DNA from: Bacteroidetes bacterium 43-93
Lineage (GTDB): Bacteria; Bacteroidota; Bacteroidia; Chitinophagales; Chitinophagaceae
NCBI GenBank assembly: GCA_001897855.1
Contig: MKUO01000027.1
Coordinates: 1 to 64,000, forward strand
Length of the DNA stretch: 64,000 nucleotides
Direction of reading: 5' to 3'
Shown: piece after piece, positions 41,795 through 51,695 of the stretch
Layout: each line of letters starts with the position of its first letter
Position numbering within the stretch: the first letter of the stretch is position 1
Notes under the pieces: generated by a model
The model's input: the letters and a program-made list of their open reading frames with translations, nothing else
The model's database searches: none
What the model was told of the DNA's origin: nothing
Position numbers and translations under genes: made by a program

Positions 41795-43219
41795 GTGAAA
41801 AAAGAATGCATATCGGTATTCGATATATTTAAGATAGGTGTAGGTCCCAGCAGTTCTCATACATTAGGCCCATGGCGCGCTGCATTGCGTTTTTTGGAAA
41901 CAGTCAAACAGAAAGGTATAGAAAAGGTTACCTCTGCCCGTGTGTTATTATATGGCTCTCTGGCCAAGACAGGTAAAGGCCACGGTACTGATGTGGCAGT
42001 GATTTTGGGTTTATGTGGTGAAGATCCTGTTACTTTTGATGTCAATGAGATCACACCACGCATTCAGCAGATCACCAATCACAAAAAAATGTTGCTTGGC
42101 GGCATTGCAGATATAGGTTTTGACCCCGCTGAGGACGTGGTGTTTTTAATGGATGAAAGCCTGCCGTACCATCCTAATGCGGTTACTTTCCTTTGCTCTT
42201 TTGAGGATGGCGAAGAAATAGCGGAAACCTATTACTCTATTGGCGGTGGCTTTGTAGTGAAGGAGGGTGAAGAAAATGCAGGTGGTGCGGATGTCGATCT
42301 TCCGTTCCCGATACAGAAAGCCGATGACCTGCTGCACTGGTGCCGCAAAACAGGCTTGCATATACACGAAGTAGTAATGGAGAATGAGCACGCCTGGCGT
42401 AGCGAAGCTGCTACACGAGCAGGAGTGTTGAAGATATGGGAAGTGATGCGCGATTGCATGTACCGCGGTGCGCATATAGGGGGCGAACTGCCCGGAGGGC
42501 TGCATGTAATGCGTCGCGCGGCAGCGCTCAATAAAAAAATGCTCAACGGCAAAACCTATAATAACTACACAGAATGGGTAGACGCTATCCGTGCCGGTGG
42601 CTCCGACTTTCGTTATATCCTCGATTGGGTTAGTTGCTTTGCCCTTGCGGTCAACGAAGAGAATGCTTCCTTTAGCAGGGTAGTGACGGCGCCTACAAAC
42701 GGAGCTGCGGGTGTAGTGCCCGCTGTATTGCAATACTTTGTTACCTTCTGCGATGGCTTGCATGAGGATAAGATCATTCAATTCCTGCTTACGGCTTCAG
42801 AAATAGGCAGCATCTTTAAAAAAGGTGCTACGTTATCTGCTGCTATGGGTGGCTGCCAGGCAGAGATTGGTGTGTCGTCGTCAATGGCGGCTGCGGCGCT
42901 TACGGAAAGTTTAGGGGGTAATGCTCGTCAGTGTATGATGGCCGCCGAAATAGCTATGGAGCACCACCTGGGGCTTACCTGCGATCCCGTTGGCGGGCTG
43001 GTACAGGTGCCTTGCATCGAGCGTAACACTATGGGCGCTATCAAGGCTATTACAGCATCACAATTAGCCCTGCAAAGCAATCCGGACAATGCGAAAGTTT
43101 CCCTGGATCATGTAGTAAGCACTATGTGGCATACAGCAAAAGATATGAACCATAAATACAAGGAAACCGCCGAAGGGGGGTTGGCATTGCATATACCTAT
43201 CAGTTTGCCGGAGTGTTAG
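41795..43219 (+). CDS. sdaA: L-serine ammonia-lyase (Fe-S type)
   Basis: The 474-residue enzyme converts serine to pyruvate and ammonia. It starts at GTG 41795 directly at the family start ([26 protein letters not shown]). The beta domain (about 1-150) and alpha domain (about 180-470) are fused as in the single-chain form. Fe-S cysteines are in [19 protein letters not shown] and VQVPCIERN. It precedes waaA by 26 bases, but the two need not share a function. Confidence 0.94.
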
Positions 43220-43245: not shown

Positions 43246-44496
43246 GTGCAGCTTTTCTTTTATAACATATTTCTCGCTCTATACACGTTTGGCATCCGTG
43301 TCACGGCCTTGTTCAATAAAAAAGCAAAGCAGTGGCTGGCTGGCAGAAAGAACATCCTGCGCATAGCAAAAGAAAGGCTGGCGGATAATAAAGAGCAGCG
43401 GATATGGGTTCACTGTTCCTCTTTGGGCGAGTTCGAGCAGGGACGACCTTTGATCGAAGCCATCAAAAAGCAATACCCTGCTTACAAGATCGTACTTACT
43501 TTTTTTTCGCCTTCCGGCTACGAAGTTCGCAAGGATTATAAATACGCTGATTATATCTTTTACCTGCCAATGGATGGCCGCAAAACAGCCGAAGAATTTA
43601 TTGGCATGGTCAACCCTAAGCTGGCCATATTCGTTAAGTACGAATTCTGGCACTACTATCTCGATCAGCTCCGAAAAAGGAATATACCAACCGTATTGGT
43701 GTCTGCGGCCTTCCGTCCGTCCCAGGCATTTTTTAAATGGCATGGTGGCCTTTTCCGCAACATGCTGCAATGTTTCACGCTCATTTTTGTGCAGGATGTA
43801 GAATCCAAAAGATTGTTGCAAACAATAGGCATAGACGATAACGTACTGCTTTCAGGCGATACTCGGTACGATCGGGTTTCTGAAATAGCAGAGATAGCTA
43901 AAAAGTTTCCTTTAATAGAAAAGTTTAAAGGCAAGGATTGCCTCTTGATAGCCGGTAGCACCTGGCCCGATGACGAAAAATTGCTGAAAAAGATACTACC
44001 TACGCTTCCCGACGACTGGGGGCTTATTATAGCACCGCACGAGATTAATAGCAACCATATAGAATATCTGCAGAATCTTTTTGAGAGCCATTGTGTGTTA
44101 TATTCAGAGCTATCCACGGAACCCAAGGGTTTCAGGGTGCTCATTATAGACAATATTGGGATGCTTTCCAGCCTGTACAGTTACGGCGAAATTGCATATA
44201 TAGGGGGTGGTTTCCAGAAGGGGGGCATCCATAACGTGCTGGAACCTGCTGTTTTTGGTCTGCCGGTATTTTTTGGCCCCCGGTACGATAAGTTTATTGA
44301 GGCCAAAGCCCTTGTTTCTCACCAGTTCGCATTTCCGGTATCAAATGTTACGGAATTTAACAATTTGTTGCAGCAGCTCATTCATGATGAGATCCATCTC
44401 AAAGCGCTGCAAAAGTCAATACGGGCCTATGTTTCATCGCAGGTAGGGGCTGCCGACAAGATAATGCAGGAGCTATCCGCCCGGTGGCTCCGCTAG
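43246..44496 (+). CDS. waaA: 3-deoxy-D-manno-octulosonic acid transferase
   Basis: The 416-residue inner-membrane glycosyltransferase (GT30) adds Kdo residues to lipid A precursor. It begins at GTG 43246, with one N-terminal hydrophobic anchor. IWVHCSSLGEFEQGRPLIEAI (about 53-73) contains the catalytic Glu of the family, and GGGFQKGGIHNVLEPAVFGLPVFFGP (about 322-347) is the CMP-Kdo binding region. It lies immediately before the Kdo-modification operon, which has its own promoter, and supports the LPS role of that cluster. With Kdo8N as donor it may attach the amino sugar. Confidence 0.95.
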   Translation: MQLFFYNIFLALYTFGIRVTALFNKKAKQWLAGRKNILRIAKERLADNKEQRIWVHCSSLGEFEQGRPLIEAIKKQYPAYKIVLTFFSPSGYEVRKDYKYADYIFYLPMDGRKTAEEFIGMVNPKLAIFVKYEFWHYYLDQLRKRNIPTVLVSAAFRPSQAFFKWHGGLFRNMLQCFTLIFVQDVESKRLLQTIGIDDNVLLSGDTRYDRVSEIAEIAKKFPLIEKFKGKDCLLIAGSTWPDDEKLLKKILPTLPDDWGLIIAPHEINSNHIEYLQNLFESHCVLYSELSTEPKGFRVLIIDNIGMLSSLYSYGEIAYIGGGFQKGGIHNVLEPAVFGLPVFFGPRYDKFIEAKALVSHQFAFPVSNVTEFNNLLQQLIHDEIHLKALQKSIRAYVSSQVGAADKIMQELSARWLR

Positions 44497-44557: not shown

Positions 44558-45766
44558 ATGCCAGGTACAGAATTATTTGGTGCTGAAGAGAGGAAAGAGG
44601 TGAATGATGTATTGGAGACAGGTATCCTGTTTCGTTACGGCCATGATGCACAGCGCAATGGCCATTGGAAGGCCCGGGAATTCGAAGAAGAAGTTAAGAA
44701 AATAACCGGCGCTAAGTATGCACATGCCATGAGCAGTGGCTCTACTGCGGTAGCTACGGCATTGGCAGCTGCAGGCATCGGTACCGGCGACGAGGTGATT
44801 GTACCACCGTTTACTTTCATTGCCACTATAGAAGCTGTACTTTTTGTAGGTGCTTTGCCTGTATTTGCAGAGGTAGACGAAACACTTTGCCTCAGTGCGG
44901 AGGGCATTAAGAAATCTATTACACCAAAGACCAAAGGCGTATGCCTGGTGCACATGTGCGGCGGCATGGCAGAGATGGATAGCATCATGCAGGTAGTAAA
45001 TGAAAATAATCTTATTCTCGTAGAAGATGCCGGCCAGGCTTTTGCATCTTCTTACAAGGGCACATCTACCGGTTTGTTTGGCAAGGCAGGTAGCTATTCT
45101 TTCGATTTCTTTAAGATAGCAACTGCCGGTGAAGGCGGTGTGCTTGTTACCAATGACGAAGAGACTTATAACAAAGCAGATTATTATTCAGACCACGGCC
45201 ACAGCCACGTAGGTGCTAAGCGCGGTATGGAACAACATCCTATCCTCGGCTTCAACTACCGCATCGGCGAATTGAATGCTGCTGTAGGTGTAGCGCAAAC
45301 AAGGCGTGTGCCGCATATCCGCGAGGTAAACAGGAAGTATAAGAAAATGCTTACAGAGTTGTTGTCACAAACTCCGGGTATTGGCTTTGCTACCATTGCC
45401 GACCCTGATGGCGATTCTGCTACCTTCCTGAATATATTGATGGAAACACCGGAAGCTGCACAACGCACGGTAGATGAAATGAACAACGCAGGTGTTGCAG
45501 GATTCGACTATTGGTATAAGAACATGTATCATTTCATCAATCAGTGGGATCATATCAAGGAGATGCGCACAGCATCTAAGCTGGCTGTAGAAGTGCTCGG
45601 CGCTCCACAGGATTATGCAAACCTGCAGCTGCCTAAGACGCAGAACGTCATCGGCCGCCTGATATCTTTCGGTATCCGCTGCACATGGACAGAAGAACAA
45701 GTGCGCGACCTGGCTGCTAAGATCTCTGATTGTGTAAAAAAAGCATTAGCAACAGCACATGCATAA
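44558..45766 (+). CDS. kdnA: KdnA-like aminotransferase (8-amino-3,8-dideoxy-Kdo synthesis)
   Basis: The 402-residue PLP enzyme of the DegT/DnrJ/EryC1/StrS family has the cofactor Lys186 in SFDFFKIATAGEGG and the pyridine-binding Asp157 in VEDAGQAFASS, with SSGSTAVATAL at 59-69. On its own this family would only indicate a sugar aminotransferase. The adjacent iron alcohol dehydrogenase, kdsA and kdsB match the Shewanella KdnA/KdnB system, where KdnA adds an amino group from glutamate to the C8 aldehyde of Kdo. Start overlap with kdnB is eight bases. First gene of the operon. Confidence 0.85.
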   Translation: MPGTELFGAEERKEVNDVLETGILFRYGHDAQRNGHWKAREFEEEVKKITGAKYAHAMSSGSTAVATALAAAGIGTGDEVIVPPFTFIATIEAVLFVGALPVFAEVDETLCLSAEGIKKSITPKTKGVCLVHMCGGMAEMDSIMQVVNENNLILVEDAGQAFASSYKGTSTGLFGKAGSYSFDFFKIATAGEGGVLVTNDEETYNKADYYSDHGHSHVGAKRGMEQHPILGFNYRIGELNAAVGVAQTRRVPHIREVNRKYKKMLTELLSQTPGIGFATIADPDGDSATFLNILMETPEAAQRTVDEMNNAGVAGFDYWYKNMYHFINQWDHIKEMRTASKLAVEVLGAPQDYANLQLPKTQNVIGRLISFGIRCTWTEEQVRDLAAKISDCVKKALATAHA

Positions 45767-46838
45767 GAATTTTAAGAACATAGAAAAAGTAGTGTACGGA
45801 CGCGGAGCGTTCAGCACTATGGATAGCATATTAGAGCCTGTAAGAAAGGAGAACGATCACTTCGTAGTTTATCTTATCGATAACTATTTCATAGATAGTG
45901 ATCTTTCAAAGCGCTTAAACGCTCAACCCGGTGACGTAATTAAATTTATCGACGTAGAACCTTCTGAACCTACCACAGACCAGATCGACAATCTTCGCGA
46001 TGAGATATTGGGCGATAAGGGCTTGCCTTCAGGAGTGGTAGGCATCGGTGGCGGTAGCATTATGGATATTGCTAAGGCATTATCGCTGATGTTTACCAAT
46101 GAAGGTTCATCTACTTTATACCAGGGGCTTAATCTTATCAAAAAGCCCGGTATTTATCACCTTGGCGTACCTACCATTTCGGGTACAGGGGCAGAGGTAT
46201 CTATGACTGCTGTGCTTACAGGGCCTGAAAAGAAGTTGGGACTCAAATGCGACTGGACGGTATTTAACCAGGTGATCCTCGATCCGGAGCTGATTGCATC
46301 TGTGCCAAGAGATAAATGGTTCTATACCGGTATGGATACATATATTCACTGCATAGAGTCAGAAAATGGTATCCTCAACAATGCTTTTAGTCATGCTTAT
46401 GCTGAGCAGTCATTAAAACTTTGCCGCGATATATTCCTTGGGGATGTTGCGGGACAAACTGCTGAGAATGATGATAAGCTGATGGTTGCATCCCTGATGG
46501 GCGGCCTTAGCCTCACTTATTCAGAAGTAGGTGTTTGTCATGCCTTGTCTTATGGCTTATCTAAGATACTCGGAGAAAAGCACTGCTATGCAAATTGTGT
46601 AGCCTTCCAGCACCTGGAAGATTACTACCCGCAGGGCGTTGCGGAATTTAAGACAATGCTGAAGAAGCATGACGTAACGCTTCCACAGGGCCTTAGCAAA
46701 GATTGGAGCGACGCAACGGTAACAGCGATGGCACAGGTGGCGTATAACCTTACGCACATGTGGAACCACGCCATCGGCACCGACTGGAAAGACAAAATAA
46801 CTTTAGATACAATAAAAGCGCTGTACAGGCGCATGTAA
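45759..46838 (+). CDS. kdnB: KdnB-like metal-dependent Kdo 8-dehydrogenase
   Basis: This 359-residue iron-type alcohol dehydrogenase has the NAD motif GGGSIMD (97-103) and complete metal ligands Asp193, His197, His261 and His275. In Shewanella, KdnB oxidises the C8 hydroxyl of Kdo to an aldehyde that KdnA then aminates. The overlap with kdnA shows that the two are made together. The fold also serves glycerol or butanol dehydrogenases, so the assignment depends on the operon. Confidence 0.85.
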   Translation: MHKNFKNIEKVVYGRGAFSTMDSILEPVRKENDHFVVYLIDNYFIDSDLSKRLNAQPGDVIKFIDVEPSEPTTDQIDNLRDEILGDKGLPSGVVGIGGGSIMDIAKALSLMFTNEGSSTLYQGLNLIKKPGIYHLGVPTISGTGAEVSMTAVLTGPEKKLGLKCDWTVFNQVILDPELIASVPRDKWFYTGMDTYIHCIESENGILNNAFSHAYAEQSLKLCRDIFLGDVAGQTAENDDKLMVASLMGGLSLTYSEVGVCHALSYGLSKILGEKHCYANCVAFQHLEDYYPQGVAEFKTMLKKHDVTLPQGLSKDWSDATVTAMAQVAYNLTHMWNHAIGTDWKDKITLDTIKALYRRM

Positions 46839-46840
46839 TT

Positions 46841-47674
46841 ATGAGCGCAAAAAAAATAGCAGTAGGCAATATTAGCTGCGGTGCCGACGAATTGTTCCTC
46901 ATTTCCGGCCCTTGTGTTATAGAGGATGAAACTGTGATGATGAAAACGGCTGAAATGCTGAAAGAGGTCAGTAGTCGGCTGAATATTCCTGTTATCTACA
47001 AATCTTCTTTTTCTAAAGATAACCGAAGCAGCCTGAAGTATTATGATGGACCGGGTCTTGATAAAGGTGTAAAAATGCTGGCTAAGGTCAAGGAGCAATT
47101 TGGTTTCCCTGTACTTACAGATATTCACTACCCCGACCAGGCAGCACCAGCCGCTGAGGTTTGCGATGTTTTACAGATACCAGCTTATTTATGTATGCAG
47201 TCTGGCTTGTTAAAAGCAGCAGCTGCTACAGGCAAAGTGATCAATATCAAACACGGCCAGTTTCTTGCTCCTGAGAACATGAAACACCCGGTGGGCAAAT
47301 GCGTAGATGCAGGTAACGATAAGATCATCCTTACAGAGCGTGGCTACACCATGGGTTATAACGATCTGGTCGTAGATCCTAGGAGTTTCTACCATATGAA
47401 CCAATTGGGTTATCCTGTTGTGTTCGATATCACGCACTCCATCCGCAAATACGGTATTCCAAGCGCAGATGCAAAAGGAGGTGCCCGCGAATTCCTTCCT
47501 GTATTGGGTAGGGCAGGGGTTGCTTCCGGCGTAGATGGTGTATTCATAGAAACACACCCCGAACCGGAAAAGGCGCTTTGCGATGCCGCCAGCCAGCTTT
47601 GCGTGTATGACCTGGAAGAATATTTAAAACCATTAATTGAAATCCATAATTTGGAAGTCAAGTACCGTAACTAA
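46841..47674 (+). CDS. kdsA: 3-deoxy-8-phosphooctulonate synthase
   Basis: The ATG at 46841, two bases after the kdnB stop, gives 277 residues beginning MSAKKIAVGN; a longer frame runs into kdnB. The enzyme condenses arabinose 5-phosphate with PEP. ISGPCVIEDE (21-30) places Cys25 where metal-dependent KdsA enzymes have their ligand; metal-free forms such as that of E. coli carry Asn there. YKSSFSKDNRSS, the GGAREFLPVLGRAG loop and FIETHPEPEKALCD are typical. It needs arabinose 5-phosphate, yet no standard kdsD is in the operon. Confidence 0.96.
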   Translation: MSAKKIAVGNISCGADELFLISGPCVIEDETVMMKTAEMLKEVSSRLNIPVIYKSSFSKDNRSSLKYYDGPGLDKGVKMLAKVKEQFGFPVLTDIHYPDQAAPAAEVCDVLQIPAYLCMQSGLLKAAAATGKVINIKHGQFLAPENMKHPVGKCVDAGNDKIILTERGYTMGYNDLVVDPRSFYHMNQLGYPVVFDITHSIRKYGIPSADAKGGAREFLPVLGRAGVASGVDGVFIETHPEPEKALCDAASQLCVYDLEEYLKPLIEIHNLEVKYRN

Positions 47675-47683
47675 ATTCCAATC

Positions 47684-48168
47684 TCTAATTTCTAAATCCT
47701 AAAGGATGGAAAATAAGGTTTACGATTTAGAGAAAAGGACATGGTTGTTTGCCCGTAATGTGAGGCAGTTTGTAAAGAAGCTGCAACTTACAATTCCTAA
47801 TAGAGAAGACATTAAGCAGGTTGTAAGAAGTTCTGGATCAATTGGAGCGAATTATATTGAGGCAAATGAGTCTTTAGGAGATAAGGACTTTTTGATGAAG
47901 ATTAAGATATGTAGAAAGGAAGCTAAGGAGACTGGGTATTGGTTGTCTTTGATAGATACAGAGGATATTTTAGTTGGCGAAAGGAACGAATTGGTTCAGG
48001 AGGCAACAGAATTGAGGAAAATATTTGGAGCTATTTTGACTAAATCACAGGCAAAATTGAACTTAGACAAATAAAAATTACTCTATTTCGGATTTTGTTT
48101 AGAATTTAGCGTCGAATTTCAAAATACACGAGATTTTAAAATTCTGATATTAGGATTTAGATATTAGA
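47684..48168. mobile_element. putative inserted cassette with 19-bp inverted ends around a four-helix-bundle gene
   Basis: The left end TCTAATTTCTAAATCCTAA (47684-47702) is matched at 18 of 19 positions by the reverse complement of 48150-48168 (TTAGGATTTAGATATTAGA). The ends enclose one AT-rich gene and separate kdsA from the next operon gene, whereas all other junctions in the operon are 2-4 bases or overlaps. A further partial copy of the repeat (AGAATTTAGGATTTAAAATT) lies at 48166-48185. No transposase is present. Mobility is inferred from structure only. Confidence 0.5.
47706..48074 (+). CDS. four-helix bundle protein (23S rRNA intervening-sequence/S23 family)
   Basis: This 122-residue protein has the S23/IVP pattern: YDLEKRTWLFARNVRQFVKKL, SSGSIGANYIEANESLGDKDFLMKIKICRKEAKETGYW spread over residues about 38-76, and a final helix TELRKIFGAIL. 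The fold is a four-helix bundle related to the Avd accessory protein of diversity-generating retroelements; members are found as inserts in 23S rRNA genes and as lone genes in operons. Its role is unknown. It is visibly more AT-rich than its operon neighbours and is bounded by inverted repeats. It has no expected role in Kdo synthesis. Confidence 0.88.
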   Translation: MENKVYDLEKRTWLFARNVRQFVKKLQLTIPNREDIKQVVRSSGSIGANYIEANESLGDKDFLMKIKICRKEAKETGYWLSLIDTEDILVGERNELVQEATELRKIFGAILTKSQAKLNLDK

Positions 48169-48190: not shown

Positions 48191-49201
48191 ATGGAATTAT
48201 ACTTGGATTCTGCCAATCTCAAAGAGATTGAAGAAGGATTTAAACTGGGTTTTCTGGATGGTCTTACCACCACACCCACATTTATGCAACGCGAAGGCAT
48301 TACCGATATAGATGGCACTATTGTGCAATTATCTAAAATGGTACCTGTACTGCAAATCGAAGCACTGGGCAATACTGCCGAAGATGTGTTGAAAGAGGCA
48401 CACCGTCAGCTAAACCTGGGCCTTGATCCGAAGAGGACAGTATTTAAAATACCTGTTTCGCTGGAAGGTGTTCGCGCTTGCAACCTGTTGCGTAAAGAAG
48501 GTCTGCTGGTAAATGTACACCTGGTATATACGCTGCAGCAAGCTTATATGGCTATGCACGCCGGAGCTACTTATGTATGCCCGCTGGTTGGCCGCCTGCA
48601 AGATCAGGGTCACGATGCACTGGCATTGGTAGAGCAATGTGTGGATGCTGTTGAAACATACGGTTACGATACTAAGATCATGTTCAGTTCTGTACGTCAT
48701 GCAGAGCACGTGCGTAACGCTATCAACATAGGCGTACACACTATTACAGTACCGCTGAAAGTATTGAAAGGACTTACTGAAAACAACTTTACTACCGTTG
48801 GTACAGACCAATTCCTTGCTGATACACGTTTAATGACCGTAAGGGTTAGGGAAGCTGCTAATGGCGTTAACCCGGTGGTAAGTGCAGATGACACCCTGCA
48901 GAATGCATTGGTAAAAATGACTGGTTACGGCTTCGGTGCTGTAACGGTTGTTAATGGCGATGGCTCTGTAAAGGGTGTATTTACAGATGGCGATATCCGC
49001 AGGCTGTTGCAAAAAGATGGTGAGCATATCCTTGGCAAGAAAATGGGCGAGATGGAATATAAAACGCCTATCACGGTAGATGCAAATGCACTGCTGAATG
49101 ATGCAGCGGTTATCTTCAAGAAAACAAGTGTAGATACCATCCTGATTACAGAAGACGGCAAACCGGTAGGTATGCTCGATATCCAGGATATTAAAGGTTA
49201 A
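48191..49201 (+). CDS. transaldolase/fructose-6-phosphate aldolase-like domain fused to KdsD-like CBS pair
   Basis: The 336-residue protein joins two domains. Residues 1-216 align with the TalC/FSA family: MELYLDSAN (Asp6), TTTPTFM, the Schiff-base Lys86 in FKIPVSLEGV, AGATYVCPLVGRLQDQGHD and IRH-like VRHAEHVRNA. Gln55 (LQIEA) agrees with fructose-6-phosphate aldolase (Gln) rather than transaldolase (Glu), but the aldolase Tyr position is Leu (CPLVGR). Residues about 224-336 are two CBS motifs closely like the C-terminal half of KdsD: GVFTDGDIRRLL and GMLDIQDI. The SIS isomerase domain of KdsD is missing. In its operon place it may supply arabinose 5-phosphate. Confidence 0.85.
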   Translation: MELYLDSANLKEIEEGFKLGFLDGLTTTPTFMQREGITDIDGTIVQLSKMVPVLQIEALGNTAEDVLKEAHRQLNLGLDPKRTVFKIPVSLEGVRACNLLRKEGLLVNVHLVYTLQQAYMAMHAGATYVCPLVGRLQDQGHDALALVEQCVDAVETYGYDTKIMFSSVRHAEHVRNAINIGVHTITVPLKVLKGLTENNFTTVGTDQFLADTRLMTVRVREAANGVNPVVSADDTLQNALVKMTGYGFGAVTVVNGDGSVKGVFTDGDIRRLLQKDGEHILGKKMGEMEYKTPITVDANALLNDAAVIFKKTSVDTILITEDGKPVGMLDIQDIKG

Positions 49202-49205
49202 TACC

Positions 49206-49895
49206 ATGACTGAAATTATCAGCCATTTTAAAGGAATATTTGTGACAGAGCCTTTGCAATTACAGCAGAGGCTCTCACATGTTAAAGCCTATGTGTTCGA
49301 TTGGGATGGTGTGTTCAATGATGGCATGAAGGATGAGCATGGCTCCAGCCCGTTCAGCGAGGTAGATTCTATGGGTACCAACCTGCTGCGATATAATTTT
49401 TATCAGCAGCACAAAAATATTCCTGTTGTTGCCATTATATCCGGCGAGCAAAACAAAGCTGCCAATGCCCTGGCAACACGTGAACGTTTTCATTCTGTAT
49501 ATGGTGGTATCAAGTTCAAGGTAGAAGCGTTGAATCACATCTGCAGCACGTACGATATACACCCGTCTGAAGTAGCATTTGTGTTTGATGATGTCCTCGA
49601 TCTCTCCATAGCTGAAAAATGTGGTGTTCGTATAATGGTGCCACGTGCCTGCAATCCTTTATTGGTAGAGTTTGCTGTGCAAAATAACATGGTAGATTAT
49701 CTTACTGCCTGCGATGGTAGCAAAGGTGCTGTGCGTGAAGCAACCGAGTTGATAAGCGGCTTGTCCGGCATCTACCAGGAGACCCTGCACAATCGCATGA
49801 ACTTTACAGAATCTTACCGGGAATATTTGAGTACAAGGCAGCAATGCATCACCCGTTTCTATACCTCAAGAGAAGGTAAAATAACAGAGTTATAA
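49206..49895 (+). CDS. kdsC: KdsC-like HAD phosphatase (Kdo-8-phosphate phosphatase)
   Basis: The 229-residue HAD protein has the KdsC-type motif I YVFDWDGVFNDG (Asp32, Asp34), motif II IISGE, motif III Lys in GGIKFKVEAL and motif IV FVFDDVLDLSI. KdsC removes phosphate from Kdo 8-phosphate as a capless tetramer of about 170-190 residues. This protein has about 25 extra residues before the core and about 45 helical residues after it. The start is four bases after the transaldolase-CBS stop, and kdsB follows after three bases. Function is supported mainly by motif and operon. Confidence 0.85.
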   Translation: MTEIISHFKGIFVTEPLQLQQRLSHVKAYVFDWDGVFNDGMKDEHGSSPFSEVDSMGTNLLRYNFYQQHKNIPVVAIISGEQNKAANALATRERFHSVYGGIKFKVEALNHICSTYDIHPSEVAFVFDDVLDLSIAEKCGVRIMVPRACNPLLVEFAVQNNMVDYLTACDGSKGAVREATELISGLSGIYQETLHNRMNFTESYREYLSTRQQCITRFYTSREGKITEL

Positions 49896-49898
49896 TTT

Positions 49899-50642
49899 AT
49901 GATAGTTGGTATAATACCTGCACGTTATGCTTCCACCCGTTTCCCGGGAAAGCCATTGATTGACATTCGAGGCAAGTCGATGATACAGCGTGTATATGAA
50001 CAGGCATCTAAATCTTCTTCGCTTGATAAAGTGGTGGTAGCAACAGATGATGAGCGCATCAAAGAACATGTGCTTGCATTTGGAGGCAATGTAGTGATGA
50101 CTGCAGAAGATCATCCGAGCGGCACCGACCGCTGTTGGGATGCACTGCAGCAAATAGAAGGTAAATACGATTACGTGATCAACATCCAGGGTGATGAACC
50201 TTTTATCGACCCTTCACAAATAGATACATTGGCTGCTGTTCTTAAAGATGGTACAACAGAACTGGCCACGCTGATTATTCCTGTTGATAATCACGAAGTG
50301 TTGTTTGATATGGGCGAAGTGAAGGTGGTGCTGAACGACAATATGGAAGGGATGTACTTCAGCCGTATGGTCATTCCATACATCAAAGGTGTGCCGCAGG
50401 AAAGCTGGCATCAGCATCACGATTATTATCGACATGTGGGCATGTACGCTTATCGTACAGATGTGCTCGAACAGCTTACTGCATTGCCTGTTTCTTCTTT
50501 AGAAAAAGCCGAATCACTCGAGCAGCTTCGCTGGTTGCAAAAAGGCTTTAAGATCAAATGCGCTATCACTCAGTTTGACAGCCATTGCATTGATACACCT
50601 GAAGATGTTGAGAAGGTGCTGCGATTAATGAATATCGGGTAA
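49899..50642 (+). CDS. kdsB: CMP-Kdo (or CMP-Kdo8N) synthetase
   Basis: The 247-residue nucleotidyltransferase activates Kdo with CTP. IIPARYASTRFPGKPLIDIRGK spreads over 4-25, followed by VVVATDDERI, NVVMTAEDHPSGTDR, INIQGDEPFI and HVGMYAYR, all KdsB features. In Shewanella the KdsB homologue prefers the amino sugar Kdo8N; the same may hold here because kdnAB begin the operon. Its 3' end overlaps the convergent hydrolase-like gene by 18 bases. Confidence 0.95.
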   Translation: MIVGIIPARYASTRFPGKPLIDIRGKSMIQRVYEQASKSSSLDKVVVATDDERIKEHVLAFGGNVVMTAEDHPSGTDRCWDALQQIEGKYDYVINIQGDEPFIDPSQIDTLAAVLKDGTTELATLIIPVDNHEVLFDMGEVKVVLNDNMEGMYFSRMVIPYIKGVPQESWHQHHDYYRHVGMYAYRTDVLEQLTALPVSSLEKAESLEQLRWLQKGFKIKCAITQFDSHCIDTPEDVEKVLRLMNIG

Positions 50643-51695
50643 TATATCCCAGCCTACATGTTTATAGTTCGTTGGTCTGTATAATCGCTCGTCCTGCAGG
50701 TTCACATCTGCCCCATGCAGCAATGCACTATAATGCCTGATGGCTTCCACCTTAGCAGGTGCCCTTCCGGGTATAGATAAGAAGTTGCTATGATCGCGGT
50801 CGCATAGCATGTTGAAGTTAATATAGATCACGTCTTTACAGGTCTTTCTTAGTGGCCTTTGCCCCAACTGCAGTCTTTTGCTCACCAGGTAAGCTCCGCC
50901 CAATGTATAATCGTGGGTGTTATAGTGCACATAGATATGGCGTGCATAATGTATCTCATTCAGCCATTTACCGGTTCCTCTTCTCGGTACGCAGGGCGCA
51001 TTTAATATTAGGTTATCTACCCACACTTCGTTATTCAGTGTTCCTAATTTATGATGCAATACCATATCCCGCTGCAGGTTATTGCCCATGCTATGATAAA
51101 ACAGTGATATCTTTCCGCTGCCCATTTTATGCTCATCTCTTAGCTTCTTAATATGTTCCATTGCGGGTGAAAAATCCTTGTAATTAGTGCGCGCATTTTT
51201 CATGGCGAAGAAATAATTACCAAGGCTTCTCTTTGTGCTGCTAATACTCGGGTAGTCCAGCAATATCACATTCACTTTGTATTCGCCCGCCATACCTATG
51301 CCCCTTGCAATGTCAGATGTGAAAAGTTTACCCATCCCTTCTGTATATACCACCCAGTCATCATTTTTCTTTGGCTCTAAAGCTATCGCTTGTTCTAATG
51401 TAGCCACCGGCAGCACATGCCAAACGCCTCCACCAGAATAAACAAAGAAATAATGTAGCTGTGTTCCGTCGCGCTCCTCCGTCATATATCGCAGGCTGTC
51501 GAAATTTGCCTTACGGTTACTGATAACAACAATGGTAGTGTCCTTATCTGTGATCGACCTGTTGGGTATTGACTTTTCTAGTTTTACCATTTTCCAGAAT
51601 GCTTCCGAATTGAAATTGCCTATTGGGTTAGGTAATGGTTTTCCATAGCCCGTAGAGGTCATCAAAAGCAGTAATATCAGGATGATGTTGCGCAT
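50625..51695 (-). CDS. exported alpha/beta-hydrolase-like protein
   Basis: The 356-residue protein has a signal peptide (MRNIILILLLLMTSTGYG). DTTIVVISNRKANFDSLRY and later ISLFYHSMGNNLQRDMV (about 199-215) match the DUF900-type alpha/beta hydrolases, where the Ser of HSMGN is the nucleophile. DHSNFLSIPG near the end could give the His. The substrate is unknown. It is monocistronic and convergent with kdsB. Confidence 0.78.
   Translation of the reverse strand: MRNIILILLLLMTSTGYGKPLPNPIGNFNSEAFWKMVKLEKSIPNRSITDKDTTIVVISNRKANFDSLRYMTEERDGTQLHYFFVYSGGGVWHVLPVATLEQAIALEPKKNDDWVVYTEGMGKLFTSDIARGIGMAGEYKVNVILLDYPSISSTKRSLGNYFFAMKNARTNYKDFSPAMEHIKKLRDEHKMGSGKISLFYHSMGNNLQRDMVLHHKLGTLNNEVWVDNLILNAPCVPRRGTGKWLNEIHYARHIYVHYNTHDYTLGGAYLVSKRLQLGQRPLRKTCKDVIYINFNMLCDRDHSNFLSIPGRAPAKVEAIRHYSALLHGADVNLQDERLYRPTNYKHVGWDILPDIH

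Follow-up and report, generated by a model that had tools for sequence, protein, structure and literature searches.

The gene at 48191..49201 on the + strand of the window (the whole 64,000-nucleotide stretch of DNA analysed here) encodes a protein of 336 amino acids in which a transaldolase/fructose 6-phosphate aldolase (TAL/FSA) barrel is fused to a pair of CBS domains resembling those of KdsD. Its sequence and genomic setting suggest that this fusion probably supplies KdsA with arabinose 5-phosphate (A5P) in place of KdsD, and that it would do so as a Schiff-base aldolase under CBS control. The replacement of KdsD by the fusion is strongly supported by genome-wide evidence, and an A5P-forming aldolase mechanism is the most likely candidate for its chemistry. 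Kdo is commonly essential in Gram-negative bacteria. Excerpts of PMC10448790 describe A5P formation as the first committed step of Kdo synthesis and cite an E. coli kdsD gutQ double mutant as nonviable.

Architecture of the fusion protein

Residues 3-201 match the Pfam family TAL_FSA (E 2.9e-34; 119.2 bits against a cut-off of 27), and two CBS stretches follow this domain (Pfam, 1.4e-16). The barrel spans residues 1-212 (48191..48826, + strand); the KdsD-like CBS pair occupies residues 218-336 (48842..49198, + strand). The best NCBIfam match of the whole protein is fsa_talC_mipB (TIGR00875), at 162.5 bits below the equivalog cut-off of 245.95. Further, residues 193-329 align with positions 133-267 of kpsF (TIGR00393), with 48.1 bits and thus below that model's cut-off of 203.7. 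By sequence, the top solved-structure match of the CBS pair is 4o9k, an entry named arabinose 5-phosphate isomerase, which we take to have CMP-Kdo bound. An AlphaFold2 model built from 51 fusions (mean pLDDT 86.6, pTM 0.57) is closest among solved folds to bacterial and archaeal transaldolases (1vpx, 3r8r and 3s0c; TM 0.85-0.91, target-normalised).

The fusion is not a chance joining, given that 80 full-length relatives share 78-100% identity with it (the best 80 of 491 relatives) and that the 51 aligned fusions, namely the window's, those from 47 of the 80 fetched relatives' loci and three from a 296-genome sample of the phylum, occupy an identical 336 columns. The domain make-up given in the preliminary description, a TalC/FSA-type aldolase domain with KdsD-like CBS motifs and no SIS domain, is therefore confirmed by Pfam, NCBIfam, the model and the 80 relatives. 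The protein belongs to the TAL/FSA superfamily by profile score, model fold, Schiff-base Lys and catalytic Asp. It stands outside the KdsD/KpsF/GutQ family, having the C-terminal CBS pair of KdsD type but neither the SIS catalytic domain nor a score above the kpsF cut-off. Among plasmid records, 201 match the fusion, none over more than 80% of the query, and the 20 matches listed involve the TAL half only.

Active site

The alignment set the fusion beside FsaA of E. coli, TalB, the TalC encoded in the same genome and the 25 unfused relatives nearest to it in the phylum sample (L024-L048; labels of this form, and those beginning with G or g, are our handles for loci, genomes and genera). Asp6, Glu57, Lys86, Asn108, Arg135, Ser167 and Arg169 are retained. 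Lys86 and Asp6, the Schiff-base lysine and the aspartate that the preliminary description had reported as kept, are present in 51 of 51 aligned fusions. Six pocket positions are changed: TalB Asn35 corresponds to Thr28 of the fusion, Ser94 to Gln55, Thr156 to His110, Ser176 to Cys130, Phe178 to Leu132 and Ala225 to Ser166. At these positions the TalB residue is found in all 25 unfused relatives and the new residue in all 51 aligned fusions.

The preliminary description had also noted Leu in place of the aldolase Tyr, and this reading stands: the position of FsaA Tyr131 is Leu132, neither the Phe of transaldolases nor the Tyr of aldolases. Its assignment of Gln55 as aldolase-like was an error of register. 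The equivalent of FsaA Gln59 is Glu57, which lies at the position of TalB Glu96 and is thus transaldolase-like, and Gln55 falls at the position of FsaA Phe57 and TalB Ser94. The register of Glu57 and Leu132 is supported by a published T. acidophilum variant, E60Q/F132Y (structure title and alignment). The preliminary description did not list four further changes: Thr for Asn28, and His110, Cys130 and Ser166 in place of Thr, Ser and Ala. The protein is therefore not a fructose 6-phosphate aldolase by its TIGR00875 score or by the Gln59/Tyr131 pair, which Glu57/Leu132 replaces, and it does not have the classical transaldolase donor pocket either, with Thr28, Cys130 and Leu132 in place of TalB Asn35, Ser176 and Phe178.

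We take bound dihydroxyacetone to contact Asn35 and Ser176 of TalB through its C1 hydroxyl and Asp17 and Asn154 through its C3 hydroxyl, and the acceptor phosphate to be held by Arg181, Ser226 and Arg228. If these roles apply, the fusion would have preserved the phosphate site for the acceptor and the contacts to one hydroxyl and rebuilt the place of the extra hydroxymethyl group, and the changes to Thr28 and Cys130 would be those expected for a two-carbon donor.

Operon context

On the + strand, the gene order is waaA, KdnA, KdnB, kdsA, a four-helix-bundle gene, the fusion, a KdsC-like HAD phosphatase and kdsB. The waaA/kdtA-like Kdo transferase (43246..44496) is over the cut-off of Pfam Glycos_transf_N and below those of the NCBIfam equivalogs. 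Orthologues of both Kdo8N-pathway enzymes follow: KdnA, the 8-amino-3,8-dideoxy-manno-octulosonate transaminase, a DegT-type aminotransferase (44558..45766; 5k8b, 3.2e-127), and KdnB, the Kdo 8-oxidase, an iron alcohol dehydrogenase (45759..46838; 5k8c, 8.4e-122). The product of kdsA (46838..47674), identified by Pfam, NCBIfam and alignments, passes the Kdo8P synthase cut-off with 329.6 bits against 314, and that of kdsB, the CMP-Kdo synthetase (49899..50642), passes its NCBIfam cut-off and is recognized by Pfam. The homology of KdnA and KdnB indicates Kdo as an intermediate, and Kdo needs A5P. Thus, by homology, this is a Kdo8N operon whose steps after A5P all have candidates; the A5P step alone is without its usual enzyme.

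The remaining two genes of the run are less regular. The KdsC-like phosphatase (49206..49895, + strand), recognized through NCBIfam and comparison with E. coli KdsC, is divergent, gives no Pfam match at 0.001 and carries a C-terminal extension of about 30 residues relative to the E. coli protein. The four-helix-bundle protein between kdsA and the fusion (47706..48074, + strand) is of the 23S rRNA IVP type (Pfam, NCBIfam). Its gene has a GC content of 0.36, occurs in 3 of the 80 relatives' loci (L057, L063, L065) and is probably outside the system.

The preliminary description proposed checking whether the kdsA/kdsB neighbourhood is conserved, and it is in most relatives. Among the 68 of 80 loci with enough flanking sequence, kdsA lies within 2.5 kb upstream of the fusion in 42, and downstream a KdsC-like gene lies within 2 kb in 54 and kdsB within 4 kb in 49; searching with the window's proteins, we found no kds gene beside the fusion in 7 of the 68. 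The statement that the fusion sits at the position of KdsD holds for the pathway; for the chromosome it gains no support from the five genomes whose kdsD locus was inspected (G380, G371, G412, G397, G408), in which the available sequence around kdsD, reaching at most about 10 kb to either side, gave no kdsA.

Two loci deserve separate mention. In the closed genome of Chitinophagaceae bacterium LGM1 (L058, 7529-9020), a DNA methylase (N6_N4_Mtase, 6.8e-18) and a 237-residue protein with no Pfam match stand where close relatives have KdnA and KdnB; as far as this locus goes, the role of the fusion seems not to be tied to the 8-amino step. The fusion protein of LGM1 is 93% identical to the window's. 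In a locus labelled Azovibrio restrictus (L065), KdnA, KdnB, kdsA, the fusion and kdsB are 84-95% identical to the window's, and waaA and KdsC 64%; this is probably a mislabelled or mixed MAG.

The surroundings of the operon bear on its history. In G380, from the window's genus, the order is sppA, serine ammonia-lyase, an ordinary kdsA, a 349-residue protein, a dipeptidyl-peptidase-like protein and dapB. The flanks of this lone ordinary kdsA are those that enclose the gene cassette in the window, where an L-serine ammonia-lyase (41795..43219, + strand), whose homologue is the one in G380, lies upstream, and a 356-residue alpha/beta-hydrolase-like protein (50625..51695, - strand), 52% identical to the 349-residue protein of G380, lies downstream. 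The family-wide majority suggests that the cassette is the newcomer in genus g1. The GC content of the cassette genes (0.44-0.48) is similar to that of the flanks (0.43-0.49), and composition thus gives no signal of recent transfer.

Absence of KdsD and occurrence of the fusion

In the genome that contains the window, which is 98.84% complete at 3.99 Mb in 27 contigs, searches with SIS and kpsF profiles yielded no SIS-type KdsD. The preliminary description had named an ordinary SIS-CBS kdsD elsewhere in the genome, together with a lack of A5P activity in the fusion protein, as evidence that would speak against it; the first of these was not found. Four SIS domain matches are present: two in GlmS, one in a phosphoglucose/phosphomannose isomerase and one in a GmhA-like protein. 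None of them is taken for a SIS-only KdsD. The GlmS matches are two domains of one protein that scores 826.8 bits to TIGR01135, over the cut-off, and the phosphoglucose/phosphomannose isomerase is over its cut-off with 348.5 bits. The GmhA-like protein has GmhA models as its top matches, with 205.0 bits to TIGR00441, just below the cut-off of 209.45. With the kpsF profile itself, the matches are the CBS half of the fusion, CBS segments in two further proteins and part of GlmS at 16.5 bits. The genome also encodes an ordinary TalC, as a gene of its own beside that for the phosphoglucose/phosphomannose isomerase.

Across the phylum sample, the full-length fusion occurs in 5 of 296 genomes (G000, G091, G146, G190, G292). 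All five lack KdsD in the sample of their class (n = 73), their best kpsF matches (E 1.5e-12 to 3.0e-19) having the strength of a CBS part. In 67 of the other 68 genomes of the class there is a kpsF match with an E of at most 2e-44 (at most 1e-82 in 65; the two weaker matches are those of G230 and G238); G041, the remaining one, is also without a KdsA that reaches the cut-off. Many genomes in other classes of the phylum are without KdsD. KdsA was sought in 80 of the 84 phylum genomes without a kpsF match better than 1e-25 (G250, G274, G282 and G286 were omitted) and was over the cut-off in eight: the five fusion genomes and G023, G200 and G272.

The family sample (n = 195) shows the same reciprocity. 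With KdsD called at E 1e-30 or better (166 genomes), and the fusion in 19 genomes, 17 have the fusion only, 2 both (G371, G413), 164 KdsD only and 12 neither, an association with a Fisher p of 6.7e-15, uncorrected for kinship. Four of the fusion-only genomes (G456, G461, G467, G473) were called KdsD-less by their absence from the 166 matching rows, these four being among nine genomes for which no row was listed, and several of the 12 with neither enzyme are poorly complete. The two enzymes swap within four genera (g1, g5, g150, g161), each of which has fusion-only and KdsD-only species. Among 50 named fusion genomes, taken from the 80 loci and overlapping the family sample (L058/G454, L127/G091, L077/G413), 46 have no kpsF match over the cut-off, and the closed LGM1 genome has the fusion and no KdsD. 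Five checked genomes in which no kds gene was found beside the fusion, four of them from the 7 loci mentioned above, are part of this pattern. In L120, L121 and L129 the scanned neighbours are unrelated genes (CoA transferase, peptidase, phosphoglycerate kinase, fumarase, arginase and others), yet in these and in L098 KdsD is absent by the kpsF cut-off; in G190 the fusion and kdsA are on different contigs, and KdsD is again absent. Lone hitch-hiking with the operon is weakened as an explanation by these five genomes.

Exceptions exist on both sides. KdsD is kept in 2 of the 19 family genomes with the fusion (G371, G413) and in 4 of the 50 named relatives (L077, L096, L100, L105); L077 and G413 are apparently one genome, and thus five distinct fusion genomes have KdsD. 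One of them, G371, combines the cassette, an ordinary kdsA and KdsD (L138, L139, L150) and is possibly an intermediate of the replacement. Four drafts (G200, G272, G023, G374; loci L156, L157, L158, L159) have an ordinary KdsA with neither KdsD nor the fusion. Either gaps in the assemblies or a further source of A5P would account for this, so the absence of KdsD is by itself no proof of a different source. The non-orthologous replacement put forward in the preliminary description is thus upheld by the KdsD-less genome, the reciprocal occurrence and the kds neighbourhood, and is qualified by the five fusion genomes that keep KdsD.

The KdsA of the cassette

The fusion travels with a KdsA of its own kind. 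KdsA of the window's type (E 1e-100 or better) is present in 18 of the 195 family genomes, which are 18 of the 19 fusion genomes and none of the 176 others. In the nineteenth, G316 (L147), the cassette kdsA is in two pieces in the draft. When kdsA was searched for in 25 genomes, the KdsA of the 16 with KdsD, a match and no fusion shared 42-48% identity with that of the window; in G408 and G476 (85% complete) there was no kdsA match at 1e-50. Of the two family genomes with KdsD and the fusion, G371 has both types of KdsA (82% and 44% identity to the window's) and G413 the cassette type only (88%).

Cassette KdsA differs from ordinary KdsA at four conserved columns. The Ala of KANR is Asp in 57 of 57 cassette sequences with a letter there (58 aligned, one gap) and Ala in 11 of 11 ordinary ones; the Arg of CRQ is Met, the second Lys of KKGQF is His and the Gln after THSx is Arg, each in 58 of 58 against 11 of 11 ordinary KdsA, and at none of the four does E. 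coli KdsA depart from the ordinary residue. The KxNRS stretch and the GPC, TH and ETHPEP stretches of solved metal-type enzymes are kept. Four of the 11 ordinary sequences come from the KdsD-less G200, G272, G023 and G374; the altered KdsA therefore marks the fusion and not the loss of KdsD. The alterations may reflect use of a different acceptor, a change in how PEP is bound or an adaptation to the fusion.

Proposed chemistry and alternatives

In the proposed mechanism, Lys86 would react with glycolaldehyde to form a Schiff base, or would do so at C1 of ribose 5-phosphate and give an enzyme-bound glycolaldehyde enamine. The enamine would add to glyceraldehyde 3-phosphate held by Arg135, Ser167 and Arg169, yielding A5P. 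Thr28 and Cys130 would fit the two-carbon donor, and Asp6 and Asn108, whose predicted place is beside the hydroxyl that remains, are unchanged. Through the CBS pair of KdsD type, a pathway nucleotide, either CMP-Kdo or CMP-Kdo8N, could exert feedback control, and A5P would pass to KdsA, the KdsC-like phosphatase, KdnB/KdnA and KdsB. The condensation of glycolaldehyde with glyceraldehyde 3-phosphate would fit the changed donor pocket of the fusion. Glycolaldehyde is not an abundant metabolite, which counts against the proposal. There is precedent for the reaction: according to excerpts of the cited papers, E. coli FsaA forms A5P from these two substrates (PMC9947464, PMC6298115) and cleaves it with a KM of 0.65 mM and a kcat of 3.6 per s (PMC6900487), and the TalB variant F178Y yields A5P and also ribose 5-phosphate (PMC9947464). 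The products of TalB F178Y, as those excerpts give them, imply that one transaldolase-type site reaches both epimers; ribose 5-phosphate could therefore donate the two-carbon unit, and free glycolaldehyde would be unneeded.

A bolder form of this idea, which we hold only tentatively, is that the fusion is a natural aldose 2-epimerase converting ribose 5-phosphate to A5P and that, with the reshaped KdsA, it makes up a mobile second entry into Kdo synthesis. Lys86 would take the aldehyde of ribose 5-phosphate, a retro-aldol step would leave the glycolaldehyde enamine and glyceraldehyde 3-phosphate both bound, and their recombination on the opposite face would give A5P, without free glycolaldehyde at any stage. 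If true, the fusion and its own KdsA would be a second, independently evolved Kdo entry that moves between genomes as a cassette. Direct isomerization of ribulose 5-phosphate on the transaldolase scaffold, giving A5P with no aldol chemistry, would explain why the pathway slot, the kind of regulatory tail and the occurrence pattern are all the same as for KdsD, and His110, the new invariant residue at the TalB Thr156 position, could be its acid-base catalyst. We nonetheless regard this as quite improbable, for Lys86, Asp6 and Glu57 are all retained and, on chemical reasoning, a Schiff base at C2 of a ketose has no simple route to an aldose.

The proposal of an A5P-forming aldolase has also to be weighed against readings in which the fusion makes something else. 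That it is an ordinary transaldolase or fructose 6-phosphate aldolase that merely resides in the cassette, with A5P coming from an unrecognised enzyme, would suit its family fold and sequence and the genomes that have KdsA and neither known A5P source. But the same genome has a separate ordinary TalC, six pocket positions differ from the residues that all 25 unfused relatives share, the protein bears a CBS pair of KdsD type, and KdsD is missing even from the five checked genomes in which no kds neighbour of the fusion was found (L098, L120, L121, L129, G190); we give this reading little credence. It is somewhat less improbable, though still unlikely, that the cassette KdsA uses a different aldose phosphate made by the fusion and that the product is an isomer or relative of Kdo. 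We keep this possibility mainly on account of the altered residues of that KdsA: with four conserved active-site columns changed, in a protein confined to fusion genomes (18 of 195, all among the 19), its acceptor might not be A5P. Against it, the KdsA is over the Kdo8P synthase cut-off with KxNRS, GPC, TH and ETHPEP in place, kdsB is over its own cut-off, and the operon holds KdnA and KdnB, whose relatives act on Kdo and which match the solved enzymes at E below 1e-120.

Comparison with known systems

None of the open-access papers listed by our searches describes the fusion in its title or abstract. The Kdo8N pathway (5k8b, 5k8c) is represented by KdnA and KdnB, both upstream of the fusion in the window; to our knowledge, an aldolase-CBS fusion at its A5P step has not been described. 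The fusion resembles KdsD/KpsF/GutQ (TIGR00393) in that the C-terminus of kpsF aligns with its CBS pair and in that it holds the same place in the Kdo pathway. Further, it often adjoins a kdsC-like gene, as kdsD and kdsC adjoin in E. coli. It differs in having no SIS isomerase domain, with 48.1 against 203.7 bits to the family model. If our proposal is correct, this would be a clear case of non-orthologous displacement in which the old enzyme's kind of regulatory tail was grafted onto the new one, and the regulation was conserved.

With TalC/FSA (TIGR00875, FsaA), the fusion shares the fold, Asp6, the Schiff-base Lys, Arg135 and Ser167. Unlike those enzymes, it has a C-terminal CBS pair, scores 162.5 bits against the cut-off of 245.95 and has Thr28, Gln55, Glu57, His110, Cys130 and Leu132 where FsaA has Asn28, Phe57, Gln59, Thr109, Ala129 and Tyr131. 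In TalB F178Y, too, as described in excerpts of PMC9947464, the Glu at the catalytic position is kept, the Phe position is substituted and A5P is formed from glycolaldehyde and glyceraldehyde 3-phosphate; that enzyme, however, is engineered, has Tyr in place of the fusion's Leu and also makes ribose 5-phosphate. If true, the activity proposed here would make the fusion a natural counterpart to the A5P aldolase that synthetic pathways borrow from FsaA.
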